IMG/VR virus record: IMGVR_UViG_3300020000_000175
Location: 1 to 31,152 of that record
DNA: 31,152 nucleotides
Source of the DNA: a virus
Strand: one strand, 5' to 3'
Positions within the stretch are counted from its first letter, which is position 1. Each line of letters starts with the position of its first letter. The notes under the pieces are model-generated. The model searched no databases. It was not told where the DNA came from and saw only the letters and a list, made by a program, of their open reading frames with translations. This document shows, piece after piece, positions 6,359 to 26,849 of this stretch. The position numbers and the translations under genes are program-made.

Positions 6359-6516
6359 CTATTGAAGAACTTATCAAAAAATTAGAAGATGCTGAGAATG
6401 ATTGTGATGAGGATTGGGAAAGAGTTCATAGTAGACAGGATGATGCTCTATTAGATTATATTAATGACGATAAAGTAACAGAAATTTTCAATCGAACTCC
6501 TAAATGGTATGCCTAA
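6355..6516 (+). CDS. 53-aa acidic hypothetical protein
   Basis: A very acidic small protein (first half rich in Glu and Asp, e.g. KKLEDAENDCDEDWE), ending FNRTPKWYA. It starts with an ATGA overlap on the ribbon-helix-helix gene. No family is recognised; a DNA-mimic or antagonist role is a possibility that composition alone cannot show. Confidence 0.6.
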   Translation: MTIEELIKKLEDAENDCDEDWERVHSRQDDALLDYINDDKVTEIFNRTPKWYA

Positions 6517-6518
6517 TC

Positions 6519-7448
6519 ATGACTGAAGAACTCGATAAAGGAATTCTCATAGAGACTGCTACTGATAAGAAGGTAAATATAGTTCTAGACATGAGTCAGT
6601 TTGACCTATTTGAGCTATGCCAATATAGATATAATGTAAGACATAATCTCCTTAAAGCTCCGCCAAAGAAAGCAGAAGCACTAGATAAAGGTTCATTAGC
6701 TCATGAAGGATTAGATGTTTATTTTAATCTACTGAAGAAAGGTATTCCATTTCAAGATAGAATGCATGAAGCTATCAAACATATTCAAGCATTAGCAGCA
6801 GACCCAGATCAATCCCATCTAGAACCTGAAGATGTAGCTGTATTGATTTCAGCCGTTGAGCAATCATGCGATTACTGGCGCTTTGAAGATGAGCAAATGA
6901 TAATCCATGAAATTGAGCAGGCTTTCGCTTTCATTCTATTCGAAGATGAATTCATACGTATCATTATAACGGGTAAGATAGATTTACTAGTAGACATTCC
7001 ATCAATTGGCCGAAACTCAGGCTATAGCAATCTTCCAATCGACCACAAGACTTATCAGAGAGACTATCCACTTGGAGAGTTGAGTAATCAGTTTACATGC
7101 TACACATATGCAGTCAAATCGAATTACATAATCATTAACCGAATTGGTCTGCAAAAGACAGTCAAGCCTGAAGATAAATTCAAAAGAATTCCCTTATCAT
7201 ATGACCCAATTAAGAAGCAACAGTGGGCAGATAATGTTAAGGATGTAATTATTGATGAGTATCTTCAGTGCGTAGCAACTGGTAGATGGAAGATGAACTT
7301 TACTAGTTGCGATAAGTTCAATCGTAAGTGTGAGTATTATGAAGTCTGTAATAGTTCCGGTATTGAAGCCAAGATGTATAAATTAGACAGCCAATTCGCA
7401 ACGGTTAGTCCGTGGGATGTAACGGCTAAGTTCTCAAAGAACTCATAA
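6519..7448 (+). CDS. Cas4/RecB-like PD-(D/E)XK exonuclease with predicted 4Fe-4S cluster
   Basis: The 309-aa protein has the landmarks of the PD-(D/E)XK nuclease superfamily: a GSLAHEGLD motif with His62, a GKID motif with Asp155, IDHK with Asp175 and Lys177 as the catalytic D-x-K, and QFTCY (Q191) as the QxxxY motif. Cys34 in FELCQYRY and three C-terminal cysteines (264, 271 and 277, in CDKFNRKCEYYEVC) match the one-plus-three cysteine layout that binds an Fe-S cluster in Cas4 and AddB-type proteins. No CRISPR array is present, so a role in resecting DNA ends for phage recombination, alongside the RecA-like ATPase and ssDNA-binding protein, is likely. The start at 6519 lies 2 nt after the previous stop; a ribosome binding site is weak and coupling probable. 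Confidence 0.85.
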   Translation: MTEELDKGILIETATDKKVNIVLDMSQFDLFELCQYRYNVRHNLLKAPPKKAEALDKGSLAHEGLDVYFNLLKKGIPFQDRMHEAIKHIQALAADPDQSHLEPEDVAVLISAVEQSCDYWRFEDEQMIIHEIEQAFAFILFEDEFIRIIITGKIDLLVDIPSIGRNSGYSNLPIDHKTYQRDYPLGELSNQFTCYTYAVKSNYIIINRIGLQKTVKPEDKFKRIPLSYDPIKKQQWADNVKDVIIDEYLQCVATGRWKMNFTSCDKFNRKCEYYEVCNSSGIEAKMYKLDSQFATVSPWDVTAKFSKNS

Positions 7449-7461
7449 GATATTAAAAGAC

Positions 7462-7626
7462 TCACTCTCTCTTGGCACCGAACTTTAACCGCGTAGCCTA
7501 TGGTAGTTCCACAGGAATAATTCCAGATGGCGAAGGAGCGAGTTTAACAGTCGATTGAGAGTGATAGACGGGGCTGAACATAATTCTACGCTTAATTCCC
7601 TAAAGCGAGGATAGTTCAGCCTCGTC
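7462..7626 (+). ncRNA. candidate structured RNA in a gene-free gap
   Basis: The 196-nt gap (7449-7644) has no gene but several nested complementary segments. An 8-bp stem TCACTCTC (7462-7469)/GAGAGTGA (7557-7564) encloses a branched hairpin with TGG/CCA and TTCC-ACA-GGAA (around 7499-7525) and CGC..GCC/GGC..GCG. It is followed directly by a 13-bp stem GACGGGGCTGAAC (7567-7579)/GTTCAGCCTCGTC (7614-7626) with a single G-U pair, closing an inner CGCTT/AAGCG hairpin. The G+C content is higher than in flanking genes. No terminator T-run follows. It does not match any RNA class I could recognise. It may be a free-standing RNA, a processed leader of the next gene or a regulator. Confidence 0.5.
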
Positions 7627-7644
7627 GCCTGATTTGAGGTTAAC

Positions 7645-7806
7645 ATGGAATATCTAGGATGGATTGTAATTCTATTATTTTTAGCTCCGTTTGTATATAT
7701 TAGGATATCATGGAGATGTAGACATTGTCACTTCTATCAAGATGATAAAACAATATGGCAATTTCTTAATATTCTTAAGAAATGCCCATATTGCGGGAGA
7801 TGGTAA
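7645..7806 (+). CDS. 53-aa membrane-anchored zinc-ribbon protein
   Basis: The first 20 residues form a hydrophobic helix (LGWIVILLFLAPFVYI), followed by CRHC and, near the C-terminus, CPYCGRW: two CxxC pairs about 20 residues apart that can bind one zinc. The likely topology is an N-terminal membrane anchor with a cytoplasmic zinc ribbon. GAGG lies 6 nt upstream of the ATG. Its frame differs from a longer open frame beginning at 7691, which I regard as the next gene read too far upstream. The function is unknown. Confidence 0.6.
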   Translation: MEYLGWIVILLFLAPFVYIRISWRCRHCHFYQDDKTIWQFLNILKKCPYCGRW

Positions 7807-9991: not shown

Positions 9992-10264
9992 ATGAGTCAT
10001 CTCTTAAGCAAACCGAAATGGATACGTCGAGCCGTTGAGACACATAATTGGCATGTAAATAAAGTAAAGGATGATGATGGATGGACTATATCAGATACTG
10101 CTAGAGTGTTAAAGAGATCCTATGGTAGCGTGAATGAAGATTTACTAATAGCTGACTGGTATGAGTCACACGAAGAAATAATATCCAAGTTTAGACATGC
10201 TAATCAGGCATTGAATTACATTAGACTCCAGAAAAAGAAGATTGAATCTAGACTCATAGACTAA
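9992..10264 (+). CDS. 90-aa helix-turn-helix protein
   Basis: Residues about 27-60 (GWTISDTARVLKRSYGSVNE and following helix) look like a helix-turn-helix: ISDTARVL as the first helix, SYGSVNEDLL as the recognition helix. The N-terminal SKPKWIRRAV segment is basic. I chose the ATG at 9992, which has AGGG 5 nt upstream; an earlier in-frame ATG at 9941 falls inside the terminator hairpin. It probably binds DNA or recruits the polymerase, whose gene overlaps its stop codon by one base. A role as regulator or replication accessory protein is inferred. Confidence 0.65.
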   Translation: MSHLLSKPKWIRRAVETHNWHVNKVKDDDGWTISDTARVLKRSYGSVNEDLLIADWYESHEEIISKFRHANQALNYIRLQKKKIESRLID

Positions 10265-12765
10265 TGCCTAACTACGTGCCAGGAGTTGGTTCTCTAGCTC
10301 CAAGATTAATGATTGTAGGAGAAGCTCCAGGTGCTCAGGAAGATGCTCAGAAACTTCCAATGGTTGGACCAACTGGTGAAATTGTTAATGATTTATTGTT
10401 TAAGTGTGGAGTACATAGGAGTGAAGTATACATCACTAACGTAGTCAAGTTTAGACCACCTATGAATGATTGGGATAAGCTACATCTTATTGGAGTAGAT
10501 GTTAAGCAATCAACTGAGGAACTTTGGGAGAATGAGATTAAAAGACTTCAGCCAAACTGTATACTTGCAGTTGGTAACAAAGCCCTTAACGCTATTTGCG
10601 GTGTCGATGGAATACTTAATTATCGGGGTAGTATACTCAGTGCCGTTGATGGTATTACTAAATGCATACCGACGATACATCCGGCAGCGTTATTTAGTCG
10701 TTCTACAGGCGAAGATGAAAACAAAGGTGGACTCGAATGGACGTGGATTAAATTAATAGAAGCAGATTTCCAGAGAGCCGTTGATGAATCACTTAATCCC
10801 AAAATTGAGTTACCAGATAGGAACCTAACCGTAGCACATAACTCTTTAGACGTGCATCGTTTCTTTAGGGAGTATGAACACCTTGATAAATCTGCAATGG
10901 ATATTGAGTCTATTAATTGTGTTCCTGTCTGTATTGGATTCGCTTTTACCAGACAGCATGCTATCTCGATACCGTTGCTACGTAAGATTGGTCCTCATTA
11001 TGTTACTGATATGGGTGATAATGAGATGGACGATATATATAAGATAGTCTATGAGAAATTAGCAACGCTTAAACTTGTTGGACACAATCTTAAGTATGAT
11101 GAATTCAAATTAACATTGATGGGATTCGGCGACCGGAAATTTAGAACTATGAATGTTTATTCTGATACATTAATTAAAACCCGTGTCATATTTCCTGAGA
11201 TGCCGAAGAAACGGCTGAATGATGTTAGCAGTCTTTGGACTAGAGAGCCTTATTACAAGGAAGAAGGAAAAGAATTCAAGTTAGGAAAATTCAAACCCGA
11301 ACAGCTTCTATTGTACAACGCCAAGGATTGTGCAGTTGAGATAGAAGTCGATGAGGAACAAGAGAATGACCTCATTCAATTGGGTAATTCTTACGGAGTC
11401 CCACTAGTAGACTATTATTATAATTACATGATGAAGAAACATAAGTTCTATCTACGTATGGAGAATGTAGGATTTGAGACTGATCATGCTAGGCAATTAG
11501 AATTACGTAAGAAATATACAGTGATGCAGGCTGAAGTTCATGCTCGATTAGTAGAACAAGTAGGACGAGAGATTAATGTAAAGAGCTATCCTGATATGTT
11601 CACCTTGTTGTATAAAGAAATGAAGTTCAAAGTTCTAAAACGTAACCCAACTGCTGAGGAATCAATCGTAAGGTTGATGTCTAATCATGCCAAGAAAAAA
11701 GGACAAAAAGAAATACTCACAGACGTTCTCGAAGAAAGACGAATTAGAGATCAGAAGTCGAGATATATTAATTTCCAGCCTGATTACGACGGAACTTGCA
11801 AAACGTCCTACAATATCTCAGCTACTGAAACGTGTAGAAGCTCAACTTCCATTCTCAAGAAGCCAGTTAGACCGAAAAAAATTGGACTTGCTTTTCACAC
11901 TATCTCAGCGCACGGCAGACTTGCGAAAGATATTAAATCAATGTTACGACCAAGAAAGGGTAAAGTATTTGTTAAAGCCGACGCTTCCCAAGCGGAAGCA
12001 AGAATAGTAATGGTTCTAGCTAAGCAGTATGATATACTTGAAGTAATAGATAAGATTGATATACATCGCAGGACGGCTGCTTTAATTCTTGGTATGACTA
12101 GAGAGTTAGATTTACGTCCAGTCTTTATACCAGTGATAGATGAGCTGGGCAAAGACAGCCCGGAAAGATTTTGTGGTAAAAAGACTAGACATGCAGGTAA
12201 CTATCAAATGGGCAAAGGTAGATTCATGTTAGAATTTAACACCGATGCTCAGAAGTTTGAGATAGATATTAACATTAGTGAGTGGAAAGCAGGCGAAATG
12301 ATTCGCTTGTTCCGCGAAGCTGATAGTAGATTGGAGAGTAACTTCTGGAATGACATTACCGAAGCAATCAAATCCACTCGTTGTCTTATTGATCCGTATG
12401 GTGGTATTCGTATTTTTAATGGTCGTATGGATGACGAATTGTTCAAAGAAGGTTATGCGAATATTCCGCAAAGGACGGTTAGTCATCTTGTCCAAGGTGC
12501 TGGATTAAAGATAGAAGAAGAATTAAACAACGATGATGATGGCCAATTCATTGGAGAGAAACACGATGAATTAATAATGGAAGTACCTGAGAATAATTGG
12601 GAGCCATATGCTCAGCTTCTAAAGAAGTATATGGAAGTGCCAATTGATTTCAGCCGTTACTGCTCCATTAAACGTGATTACATTTTAACAATTCCATGTG
12701 ACGTTGAGATTAGTAATACTCATTATGGTGATTTCCAGAAAGTAAAGTTAGAGAAAGTCGCATGA
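10264..12765 (+). CDS. fusion of uracil-DNA glycosylase-like domain and family A DNA polymerase
   Basis: This 833-aa protein is probably the phage replicative polymerase. Residues 1-170 form a family 4/5-like uracil-DNA glycosylase domain (GEAPGAQED at 19-27, NVVKFRPP at 59-66, HPAA at 139-142). The usual Fe-S cysteine in K-C-R-P-P is Phe here. A 3'-5' exonuclease follows: ExoI D213/E215 (AMDIES), ExoII N275/D279, ExoIII Y351/D355 (YNAKD). The polymerase domain has a TxTxR-like TETCR (521-525), motif A DASQAEAR (573-580), motif B around KKTRHAGNYQMGKG (639-652) and motif C KHDE (766-769). Motif B lacks the standard Lys and Tyr-Gly of Pol I (see findings). No 5' nuclease domain is present. The start ATG overlaps the previous stop by one base. 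Confidence 0.92.
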   Translation: MPNYVPGVGSLAPRLMIVGEAPGAQEDAQKLPMVGPTGEIVNDLLFKCGVHRSEVYITNVVKFRPPMNDWDKLHLIGVDVKQSTEELWENEIKRLQPNCILAVGNKALNAICGVDGILNYRGSILSAVDGITKCIPTIHPAALFSRSTGEDENKGGLEWTWIKLIEADFQRAVDESLNPKIELPDRNLTVAHNSLDVHRFFREYEHLDKSAMDIESINCVPVCIGFAFTRQHAISIPLLRKIGPHYVTDMGDNEMDDIYKIVYEKLATLKLVGHNLKYDEFKLTLMGFGDRKFRTMNVYSDTLIKTRVIFPEMPKKRLNDVSSLWTREPYYKEEGKEFKLGKFKPEQLLLYNAKDCAVEIEVDEEQENDLIQLGNSYGVPLVDYYYNYMMKKHKFYLRMENVGFETDHARQLELRKKYTVMQAEVHARLVEQVGREINVKSYPDMFTLLYKEMKFKVLKRNPTAEESIVRLMSNHAKKKGQKEILTDVLEERRIRDQKSRYINFQPDYDGTCKTSYNISATETCRSSTSILKKPVRPKKIGLAFHTISAHGRLAKDIKSMLRPRKGKVFVKADASQAEARIVMVLAKQYDILEVIDKIDIHRRTAALILGMTRELDLRPVFIPVIDELGKDSPERFCGKKTRHAGNYQMGKGRFMLEFNTDAQKFEIDINISEWKAGEMIRLFREADSRLESNFWNDITEAIKSTRCLIDPYGGIRIFNGRMDDELFKEGYANIPQRTVSHLVQGAGLKIEEELNNDDDGQFIGEKHDELIMEVPENNWEPYAQLLKKYMEVPIDFSRYCSIKRDYILTIPCDVEISNTHYGDFQKVKLEKVA

Positions 12766-14591: not shown

Positions 14592-14681
14592 GCCACCTTG
14601 GCGAAATTGGCAAACGCGAAGGACTTAAAATCCTTTTCTGGCAAACCCAGATTGTCGGTTCGATTCCGACAGGTGGCACCA
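14592..14681 (+). tRNA. tRNA-Leu, anticodon UAA
   Basis: Acceptor arms GCCACCT/AGGTGGC pair fully, discriminator A is followed by an encoded CCA. The anticodon stem AAGGA/TCCTT holds loop CTTAAAA (anticodon TAA). A long variable arm CTGG/CCAG and T-arm GTCGG/CCGAC with TTCGATT complete a class II leucine tRNA that reads UUA and UUG. Confidence 0.95.
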
Positions 14682-14700
14682 TTTTAATTTGAGGTCTTTT

Positions 14701-15060
14701 ATGTTTCCACATGAATTAAATCAATTGGCAGAAAGAGTTCATACTGCAAATAAGAAATGGTGGATTGATATAAAAACTGGAGAGCCTATTGAACGTAATG
14801 TAGGAGAAATGCTATGCTTAATTCATTCTGAGATTAGTGAAGCATTAGAAGGGCATAGAAAAAGTTTAATGGATGATAAACTACCTCATAGGGAGATGTT
14901 TGAGGTAGAACTAGCTGATGCTCTAATTAGAATACTAGATTTAGCTATTGGTTTAGGATATGATATTGGAGGAGCTTTTGAAGAAAAGATGGCATATAAT
15001 GCAATAAGACATGACCATTCTATAGAAGGCAGATTAGAACAACACGGTAAGAAATACTAA
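14701..15060 (+). CDS. MazG-like nucleotide pyrophosphohydrolase
   Basis: The 119-aa protein matches the helical MazG-like fold: EMLCLIHSEISEALEG with E44 and E47 as the ExxE pair, EVELADALIRILD with E70 and D73 as the ExxD pair, and a final helix containing EEKMAYNAIRHDH. These acidic residues bind magnesium and a nucleoside triphosphate, which is cleaved to monophosphate and pyrophosphate. In phages such enzymes adjust dNTP pools, lower ppGpp, or remove unwanted nucleotides. GAGG lies 6 nt before the ATG at 14701; an upstream TTG is not needed. The gene lies between two tRNA-Leu genes. Confidence 0.85.
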   Translation: MFPHELNQLAERVHTANKKWWIDIKTGEPIERNVGEMLCLIHSEISEALEGHRKSLMDDKLPHREMFEVELADALIRILDLAIGLGYDIGGAFEEKMAYNAIRHDHSIEGRLEQHGKKY

Positions 15061-15067
15061 AGCAAAG

Positions 15068-15155
15068 GCCACAGTGGCGGAACTGGTATACGCAACGGAC
15101 TTAAAATCCGTCGATGCCTAGCATCATGTGGGTTCGATTCCCACCTATGGCGCCA
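15068..15155 (+). tRNA. second tRNA-Leu, anticodon UAA
   Basis: Acceptor GCCACAG pairs with CTATGGC with one C-A mismatch at the fifth pair; discriminator G and encoded CCA follow. The anticodon stem ACGGA/TCCGT has loop CTTAAAA, the same anticodon as the first tRNA-Leu. The variable arm GATGC/GCATC and T-arm GTGGG/CCCAC are intact. It is divergent from the first copy, so not a recent duplicate. Confidence 0.9.
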
Positions 15156-15160
15156 AAATT

Positions 15161-15328
15161 ATGAAAATCATCAAGATCAAATTAATCGTAGAAGATACAT
15201 GTAATCCTTCAAATCAAGATGCTATAAGTTATGTGAATGACCTAATATGCGAAGCGATTAGTAGAGAAGAACGTCAGAAACATCCTAGAATTAAACTTAT
15301 ATTAATTGAATCTAAGCATATAGGATAA
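15161..15328 (+). CDS. 55-aa hypothetical protein between tRNA genes
   Basis: A small beta-alpha protein (MKIIKIKLIVEDTCNPSNQD..., then a helix SYVNDLICEAISREERQK, then a strand RIKLILIES). The ATG at 15161 lies just after the second tRNA. A longer frame starting at 15128 is inside the tRNA and is rejected. No ribosome binding site is obvious and the tRNA end may be processed away, so translation is less certain. Confidence 0.5.
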   Translation: MKIIKIKLIVEDTCNPSNQDAISYVNDLICEAISREERQKHPRIKLILIESKHIG

Positions 15329-15337
15329 TAATCAAAC

Positions 15338-15412
15338 GGGCCATTAGCTCAGTCTGGTCAGAGCAGTAGACTCATAATCTAACGGTCGTAGGTTCAAATC
15401 CTACATGGCCCA
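15338..15412 (+). tRNA. tRNA with CAU anticodon (Met or lysidine-modified Ile)
   Basis: Acceptor GGGCCAT pairs perfectly with ATGGCCC; discriminator A and no encoded CCA. The anticodon loop CTCATAA gives CAT, the D-arm is AGCTCAGTCTGG-type, and the T-arm GTAGG/CCTAC is intact. A paired first base argues against an initiator tRNA. Elongator Met and Ile2 cannot be separated by eye. Confidence 0.93.
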
Positions 15413-15433
15413 CTAATTTTGGAGAAGAAAGAA

Positions 15434-25363: not shown

Positions 25364-25692
25364 GGCGTTATTTGAACTCCAAAGAGATTGAATGAGACGG
25401 TTCCTGTATCACTGTAACAACGAACTACATCAGCAGCAGCTAAAGTCATTCCTAAAGTACCAACAAATGTATCATTAGGATCTATTACTAAATCATAATA
25501 CATATACTGTTTAGTATCATCAGCAGCTCCTCCGACTGCTACTGAAAATCTAACTTTAGCAGAATAAGGAGCCTGGTTACAAAATGAAAATGAGCTACCA
25601 ACTAAACTAGTTCCATTTGGACAAGTATATAAATCAGTTAGTACCTGAGCGGCTGGATAAGATTGTCCATATACTGCAATAGTATCAGTCAT
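25360..25692 (-). CDS. 110-aa beta-domain virion protein, paralogue of the 479-aa C-terminus
   Basis: The whole protein corresponds to the last domain of the protein at 22663-24102, about 40% identical without gaps by eye. Conserved features include GQ..P, SS...CN..PY, GAAD..KQY.YY, and the run V-V/I-R-C with S and T-G after it. This is a stand-alone version of that domain. Domains of this kind typically form trimers in fibres or decorate capsids; the identity is unknown. It is preceded by the collagen-like fibre gene, overlapping by one base. Confidence 0.65.
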   Translation of the reverse strand: MTDTIAVYGQSYPAAQVLTDLYTCPNGTSLVGSSFSFCNQAPYSAKVRFSVAVGGAADDTKQYMYYDLVIDPNDTFVGTLGMTLAAADVVRCYSDTGTVSFNLFGVQITP

Positions 25693-26849
25693 TATCCACC
25701 CATTAATGCAAACTGTCTAGCTAATCCTGGTGGTACTGCAACTACTTTGCCGGGAGGTCCAGGAATATAAGATTCTTCTCCATCAATACCATCTAAAACT
25801 ATAAAACTAGTTCCACTACCACTACCTGAACCTGCTGGACCTTGCGGTCCTGTTGCACCTGTAGCACCTGGTATTGGTGGTTCTGGATCTATTACATCTC
25901 CTAAATCTATAAGTAACATTAATCCTGATGCTCCTGTTGCACCTTGAGCACCATCAGCACCTCTTATTCCAGGAATAGGTATTTCAGCATCAGGAATATC
26001 TACATCTAAAAATATAGCTGGACCTGTTGGTCCTTGTGCTCCAGTTAATCCATCAGTTCCTTTTATACCAGGAATAGGAAATCCATCTTCACCATCTATA
26101 GGATCTAAGAAAATACCTACTGCACCTTGACTACCTGTATCACCTTTATCACCTTTAGAACCAGGTAATCCTGGTATTGGTAATTCAGGTTCAAGAACAT
26201 CTAATTCTAAATAAACTGCTGGTCCTACAGGTCCTTGGCTACCTGTTAAACCAGTATCACCTTTAGCACCAGGTATAGGAGAATCTGATTCAAGTACCTC
26301 TGGTTCTAAATAAACCATTGGTCCTTGAATGCCTTGTGGTCCTTGTGGACCTGTACTACCAACACCAGAACTTGAAAGCATCATCATTGGTTCATCATTA
26401 TCAATATCTCCTAATATTGTTAAAAATGCTCCAGATGAAGAACCTCCATCAGTGATACCTGTTACATTAACAGTTCTCTTATGAATTACTGTATCATCAA
26501 ATGATACGTTAGTACCTGGTAATAATTCTCTAGATGATGGAAGTCCAGCAGATTCATCTGTAGCCGTTAAGAAAGTAGCATCCTTGAAAAGCTCATTAAT
26601 AATGCTAACACTGGAAGTGAATCCATTAATTACAACTGAAATAGCAGTAAATTGACTTACTGTTAAATCTTTATTTTGTTGAGCATTCTTAAGTAACTGA
26701 TTGATAACTTGGTAAAGTGCATTGTTTTTAGTTTGTATACCAGAATCATTTAATATTTTGAATAATGGTCTAAAATCTATTTGTTCTCCAATAGGGCCAA
26801 GCCACTTCTTATTAGTATCTGGTAGACCATCATCCCATTTCTTAGCCAT
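25692..26849 (-). CDS. 385-aa fibre protein with interrupted collagen-like repeats
   Basis: Residues 1-135 form a globular N-terminal part, presumably for attachment. From about 160 to 365 runs of Gly-X-Y (e.g. STGPQGPQGIQGP, PGLPGSKGDKGDTGS) alternate with six acidic-hydrophobic inserts ending PIPG or YIPG (about 178-193, 212-227, 246-261, 279-294, 310-328 and 348-364), a period of 32-37 residues. The repeats would form a segmented trimeric stalk. The last 20 residues (VAVPPGLARQFALMGG) may cap the tip. A tail or head fibre is likely, extending toward the LamG-like or beta-domain proteins in adjacent genes. Confidence 0.8.
   Translation of the reverse strand: MAKKWDDGLPDTNKKWLGPIGEQIDFRPLFKILNDSGIQTKNNALYQVINQLLKNAQQNKDLTVSQFTAISVVINGFTSSVSIINELFKDATFLTATDESAGLPSSRELLPGTNVSFDDTVIHKRTVNVTGITDGGSSSGAFLTILGDIDNDEPMMMLSSSGVGSTGPQGPQGIQGPMVYLEPEVLESDSPIPGAKGDTGLTGSQGPVGPAVYLELDVLEPELPIPGLPGSKGDKGDTGSQGAVGIFLDPIDGEDGFPIPGIKGTDGLTGAQGPTGPAIFLDVDIPDAEIPIPGIRGADGAQGATGASGLMLLIDLGDVIDPEPPIPGATGATGPQGPAGSGSGSGTSFIVLDGIDGEESYIPGPPGKVVAVPPGLARQFALMGG

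Follow-up and report, generated by a model that had tools for sequence, protein, structure and literature searches.

Several structured RNAs of phages resemble, in one respect or another, the element described here. The put RNA of phage HK022 consists of two stem-loops with a very short linker between them, RNase III processing sites of the T7 type are hairpins that lie between the genes of a phage operon and have internal loops, and the c4 antisense RNA (RF01695) is a phage RNA made from a transcript that it shares with neighboring genes. GOLLD and ROOL are phage-encoded structured RNAs of unknown function that often lie close to tRNA genes (PMC12286853), and the manA and wcaG motifs (RF01745 and RF01761) are structured RNAs of environmental phages (PMC2864571).

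The present element lies in a 31-kb virus record of an uncultivated soil phage, IMG/VR record IMGVR_UViG_3300020000_000175, whose positions 1 to 31,152 make up the whole stretch of DNA analyzed (31,152 nucleotides, here called the window). Like GOLLD and ROOL, the element is phage encoded and structured and is often found near tRNA genes, but it is only about 130 to 200 nt long and has two arms; both of those families are far more elaborate, and many GOLLD RNAs are longer than 800 nt. In common with HK022 put and the EAR antitermination RNAs, it is a structured RNA within an operon, although no Rfam relation to them was found and the likeness is one of plan alone. It differs from T7-type RNase III sites in occurring once per record and in having conserved loop sequences. 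Unlike c4, it has no Rfam match and no antisense target has been identified for it; manA and wcaG, which sit in potential 5' untranslated regions of particular genes, differ from it in these placements and in being Rfam families.

No family in Rfam 15 (including GOLLD, ROOL, c4, manA, wcaG, ribozymes, and riboswitches) reached its gathering threshold in the gap that holds the element or in the element of 10 relatives, and an E-value search of the gap against Rfam returned chance scores only. Searches for tRNA and tmRNA (ARAGORN and RF00005) found none in the gap and none within the element, the tRNAs lying elsewhere or behind it. This agrees with an earlier note on the same DNA, which could match the gap to no known tRNA, tmRNA, ribozyme, or riboswitch. 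Across the libraries, where no family matches, and the limited literature searched, the element most likely represents a new RNA family among phage-encoded structured RNAs.

The gap between plus-strand ORFs runs from 7449 to 7644 (196 nt), from the end of an exonuclease ORF at 7448 to the start of the next plus-strand ORF at 7645, so that the gene-free gap of about 200 nt seen previously does hold no plus-strand gene. The features of the region are as follows.

6504 to 7448, plus strand: PD-(D/E)XK (Cas4-like) exonuclease, the upstream gene (Pfam PDDEXK_1, E = 1.7e-12; PHROG exonuclease, E = 3.3e-20)
7456 to 7461, plus strand: 5' leader AAAGAC; relatives have AAGAY or GAAAC ahead of the outer stem
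7462 to 7564, plus strand: arm 1, predicted by folding, with outer stem P1a (7462-7469/7557-7564) and a branched interior (sub-type A, see below)
7565 to 7566, plus strand: UA, the two-base linker of the arms; the first pair of arm 2 behind it is an invariant G-C
7567 to 7626, plus strand: arm 2 (P2), with an inner hairpin on a stem of 13 pairs, 7567-7579/7614-7626 (z = -6.67; 22.5 bits with covariance model R1, see below)
7627 to 7644, plus strand: 3' tail, with GC right behind arm 2 and then the ribosome-binding site GAGG (7636-7639)
7645 to 7806, plus strand: small downstream ORF of 53 aa, found at this place in relatives only in L004
7808 to 8140, plus strand: zinc-ribbon-like ORF with paired CxxC motifs, which in relatives usually bounds the element's interval on the downstream side

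The order of genes behind the gap is the small ORF, the zinc-ribbon-like ORF (no match in Pfam or PHROG), a Sak4-like ATPase, an ORF without a PHROG match that we label SSB-like, and a fusion of uracil-DNA glycosylase (UDG) with DNA polymerase A; the tight packing of these genes suggests an operon. The fusion, at 10264 to 12765, is a single protein of 833 aa and is kept throughout the related phage group. Elsewhere in the window, the stretch from 14592 to 15413 contains one tRNA-Met and two tRNA-Leu genes that share the anticodon TAA, and tRNA-Leu(TAA) recurs in many relatives, in several of them directly behind the RNA element. A long gap at 1116 to 1716, with a hairpin followed by a T-run (about 1151 to 1205), TA runs, and a G+C-rich stretch, is possibly a regulatory or origin region, and a minus-strand protein with collagen-like Gly-X-Y repeats (25692 to 26849) is probably a tail fiber.

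The folding energy of the gap is -71.4, compared to -48.0 ± 4.7 for dinucleotide shuffles (z = -4.97), and none of 200 shuffles was as low. Folded alone, arm 2 stands well apart from its shuffles (z = -6.67), with arm 1 at just z = -2.45. All 8 bp of P1a are standard, and they enclose a branched arm; the second stem has 13 pairs, one of them G-U, around an inner hairpin. The fold thus bears out the long-range 8-bp stem around a branched hairpin and the nearly perfect 13-bp stem that had been picked out by reading the letters, and the higher G+C content ascribed to the gap was likewise found (0.48, versus 0.38 for the whole window). There are no terminator-like sites between 5700 and 9600, and the window's tail, CGCCTGATTTGAGG, lacks the U-run that directly follows the GC-rich stem of an intrinsic terminator, as the earlier note had said in pointing to the missing T-run. 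A promoter scan was uninformative (18 found versus 15.2 expected).

The two closest relatives of the exonuclease (L001 and L002) have a structured gap at the same place, with CGYGTAGC and TAAT motifs in common with the window. Searches with polymerase and exonuclease profiles extended the set to more than 100 loci, some of them from the same records, and most loci spanning the region retain the order exonuclease, zinc-ribbon ORF, ATPase. The matched part of the Cas4-like gene in L009 (1722 to 2624) has a single in-frame stop codon. In one large group the gap contains a two-armed RNA with a strongly conserved core. A covariance model, R1, was built from 16 of these relatives (sub-type B below) and calibrated briefly, so that its E-values are rough. 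It matches 29 loci (22 plus 7 more) at 32 to 137 bits, all on the operon strand and between the Cas4-like exonuclease gene and the zinc-ribbon-like ORF, and searches of whole records gave at most one copy per record. A filtered R1 search of the whole record G000 gave no match. A pattern made from the motifs had nine scattered matches in genome contigs, seven without R1 and two at 19.1 and 11.7 bits, which we read as chance, and its matches in four other viral contigs (L126, L130, L132, and L134) had neither R1 nor the neighboring genes.

Beyond the metagenomes, nucleotide matches to isolated phages cover at most 13% of the query, with E of about 8. Among isolated phages the neighboring exonuclease has no relative and the polymerase only remote ones (about 22 to 28% identical); the polymerase profile gave no hit in bacterial or archaeal genomes. 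Because isolated phages offer remote polymerase relatives alone and no exonuclease, and the genome collections gave no match, no host can be named.

The element is built to a common plan: a leader, short and rich in purines, precedes arm 1, whose outer stem has about 7 to 12 bp; then come UA, arm 2 with a stem of 12 to 13 bp, and GC, and in most relatives a U-rich tail follows. The window's tail has no such U-rich stretch. Arm 1 of sub-type B, the common one, contains an internal loop that is conserved (GCCGUU opposite AACAGUAGUGC); usually there is also a hairpin of 5 bp, capped by a 7-nt loop with GAAAG in it. Five members of this sub-type (L026, L032, L046, L066, and L094) carry an extra inserted branch or a longer interior in arm 1.

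The pairing is supported by compensatory changes. In the 16-sequence alignment of sub-type B, double changes of this kind occur in 27 of 31 consensus pairs. P1a is among the stems that covary in this sub-type. By an independent count of pairs, 94.9% of cells are paired (68.3% when shuffled) and 140 cells have double changes (39 when shuffled); none of 500 shuffles was as high on any measure of covariation, and sliding the strands against each other collapses the pairing. A second, anchor-based alignment of 25 sequences, made with hand-set rules, has 701 Watson-Crick, 55 G-U, 7 A-C, and 17 other combinations in the cells of the proposed pairs. Since G-U so outnumbers A-C, it is the plus-strand transcript that folds. 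A tree-aware null, in which substitutions are permuted over the tree in the manner of R-scape (a script of ours that uses a single Fitch reconstruction and 60 replicates and does not distinguish significance under about E = 0.017), found 15 of the 32 proposed pairs significant at E < 0.05 and no pair outside the list; two of the next-ranked pairs outside it, 14-57 and 15-56, simply extend the outer stem. By the same test there is no significant covariation between leader and tail. Also considered and rejected was a switch that would pair the AGCCGUU strand of arm 1 with the 3' strand of arm 2: at least 7 Watson-Crick pairs could form in just 6 of the 25 sequences, and the pairing is not conserved. 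In many sub-type B members (e.g., L047, 1089 to 1233), arm 2 repeats the AGCCGUU strand of arm 1 within its own 5' strand.

The window belongs to a smaller set, sub-type A, together with the near-identical L004 and with L001 and L002, which make up three independent lineages. All four have the leader and outer stem, the linker UA, and arm 2 with the GC tail, and the P1a stems of the three lineages differ in sequence while each is complete. The sub-type B interior of arm 1 (GCCGUU, GAAAG loop, and AACAGUAGUGC) was not found in the window, whose own interior is common to L001, L002, and L004 only. The window's R1 score of 22.5 bits (for 1 Mb, E = 0.0046, a rough value) comes mainly from the second-arm side. 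A descriptor of the shared architecture (leader, outer stem, linker, and arm 2) matches 22 of 30 element-bearing loci, the window included, and nothing in 2.28 Mb of shuffled sequence; the window has the full two-armed order of leader, P1a, UA, P2, and GC. Between the window and L004 there are no differences in the 109 nt of arm 1 and leader, with nearby sequence and genes differing by about 1 to 10%, and the two differences in arm 2 (7620 and 7622) are G-C and G-U swaps, one in each direction, that keep the pairing. By eye, GUAG-GGC ... GCC-GAAR in the long sub-type B variants L032 and L046 resembles GUAG-CC ... GGC-GAAGG in the window, which is a lead. A different multi-hairpin element, which we call sub-type C, was also seen by eye behind the exonuclease gene in two sequences (L043, 3961 to 4158, and L053, 714 to 905), with the conserved sequences GTTAAGTAGTGAGTAA and GAAAAGAACCAAGTAA.

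The proposal of an uncharacterized structured RNA is therefore supported by covariation in relatives and by the lack of an Rfam family, with the qualification that it holds for a family of which the window's copy is a divergent sub-type, with the interior of its arm 1 outside the family model. The expectation that homologous gaps would show compensatory changes held strongly across the larger related group, and close relatives have the element at the same site, so that the gap is neither absent nor unstructured there. Conservation does not extend to many distant relatives, which have no element, and one has it elsewhere in the operon.

In the polymerase tree the sub-types form groups, with support of 0.991 for B, 0.998 for B and C together, and 0.357 for A, B, and C together. 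No element was seen in L068 and L081, the tips adjoining sub-type C. Most of the sister clade also lacks it, the descriptor finding none in the loci at hand, and therefore not all of these phages need it. The descriptor was also applied to 14 whole or near-whole records that lie outside sub-types A and B. It picked out a copy in the outgroup phage L042 and five matches judged false (L151, L154, L157, L160, and L180), which span an open frame and have no G behind arm 2. In L042 the element lies behind the SSB-like gene instead; it must therefore be either ancestral and moved, or transferred. In most loci the element starts 4 to 15 nt past the upstream stop codon, whichever gene that is (in a minority, from a short overlap up to about 230 nt from it), and ends shortly ahead of the ribosome-binding site of the next ORF or of a tRNA gene. 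The tRNA genes follow at 7 to 14 nt in six loci (L018, L027, L037, L076, L091, and L092) and at about 28 to 78 nt in L013, L047, and L029. ORFs that we read as homing-endonuclease-like lie beside or near the element in L018, L033, and L062.

In our view, these comparisons establish that the gap encodes a real, uncatalogued, conserved structured noncoding RNA on the plus strand. A minus-strand ORF of 53 aa (7485 to 7646) overlaps the gap; that the gap is a gene is made unlikely by the covariation and the excess of G-U in relatives. A chance fold is excluded within the family by the covariation. That arm 2 is a plain intrinsic terminator would accord with its GC-rich stem and with the U-rich stretch behind it in many relatives, but the window has no U-run, L007, L016, and L118 likewise have none, and same-strand replication genes follow closely; together, terminator and chance fold are hardly credible. 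Only slightly less improbable is a hairpin acting as DNA, for example as a replication origin or as a primase or packaging site. Its location among replication genes would suit such a role and covariation is also expected of single-stranded DNA hairpins, but the ratio of 55 G-U to 7 A-C indicates that the fold of one strand is constrained, as for a transcript, and the element is packed like a tRNA. A role as leader or switch for a single downstream gene, as a riboswitch or through protein autoregulation, is suggested by the short distance to the ribosome-binding site in the window and several relatives, and is improbable nonetheless: the next gene may be a small ORF, a homing-endonuclease-like ORF, a tRNA gene, or the zinc-ribbon ORF, and these varied neighbors, with the placement behind the SSB-like gene in L042, argue against the element's being the leader of one fixed gene.

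The main rival, which we regard as a real though lesser possibility, is a cis-acting operon element, in which the folded transcript would act on the RNA that carries it by recruiting a machine or by resisting one, as in processive antitermination (HK022 put and EAR RNA) or in RNase III-type cutting and mRNA stabilization (the T7 intergenic sites). The element lies in a dense run of same-strand genes, a short distance behind a stop codon; the polymerase gene is downstream in sub-type A and B loci and for the relocated L042 copy alike; two stem-loops with a two-base linker would resemble the put plan; and some tails are weakly boxA-like (CGCUUUUAAA in L001). On the other side, the loops (GAAAG, GCCGUU, and AGUAGUGC) are strongly conserved, where RNase III sites usually need less conservation of loop sequence, the tail varies between relatives, and no known family matched. 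A role in cis, whether in antitermination, RNase processing, or stability, would fit nearly as well as excision and action in trans.

We nonetheless favor, at a probability of roughly 0.55, a new structured RNA that is co-transcribed, probably excised, and active in trans. Because it sits tight between the upstream stop and the next ribosome-binding site or tRNA, the RNA would probably be transcribed together with the replication and recombination genes and probably be cut out of the operon transcript, like the tRNAs that often lie behind it. Since its neighbors differ between phages and the outgroup has it behind another gene, the free RNA would most likely act in trans, with its conserved loops as the binding site for a host or phage factor. 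Against action in trans, an element within an operon could act wholly in cis; against the reading as a whole stand the filtered R1 search of G000, which gave no match, the lack of the element in most of the sister clade, and the interior of the window's arm 1, whose homology to that of sub-type B is no more than possible. A more specific and rather doubtful version is a class of small phage RNAs, excised with phage tRNAs, that would disable or recruit a host factor in trans (candidates being RNA polymerase, an RNase, a ribosome component, or a tRNA-targeting defense) on a fixed two-arm scaffold with an exchangeable interior of arm 1, which would have been replaced between lineages.

Not many structured RNAs have been described from lytic phages, and for most of them no function is assigned. 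The element described here has strong covariation support and is short enough for synthesis and probing; as far as searched, it is restricted to a phage lineage known from metagenomes only, where it sits amid recombination and replication genes and beside tRNA genes. With a covariance model and exact ends in hand, it can be asked whether a free RNA or an operon-embedded element controls infection in these phages.
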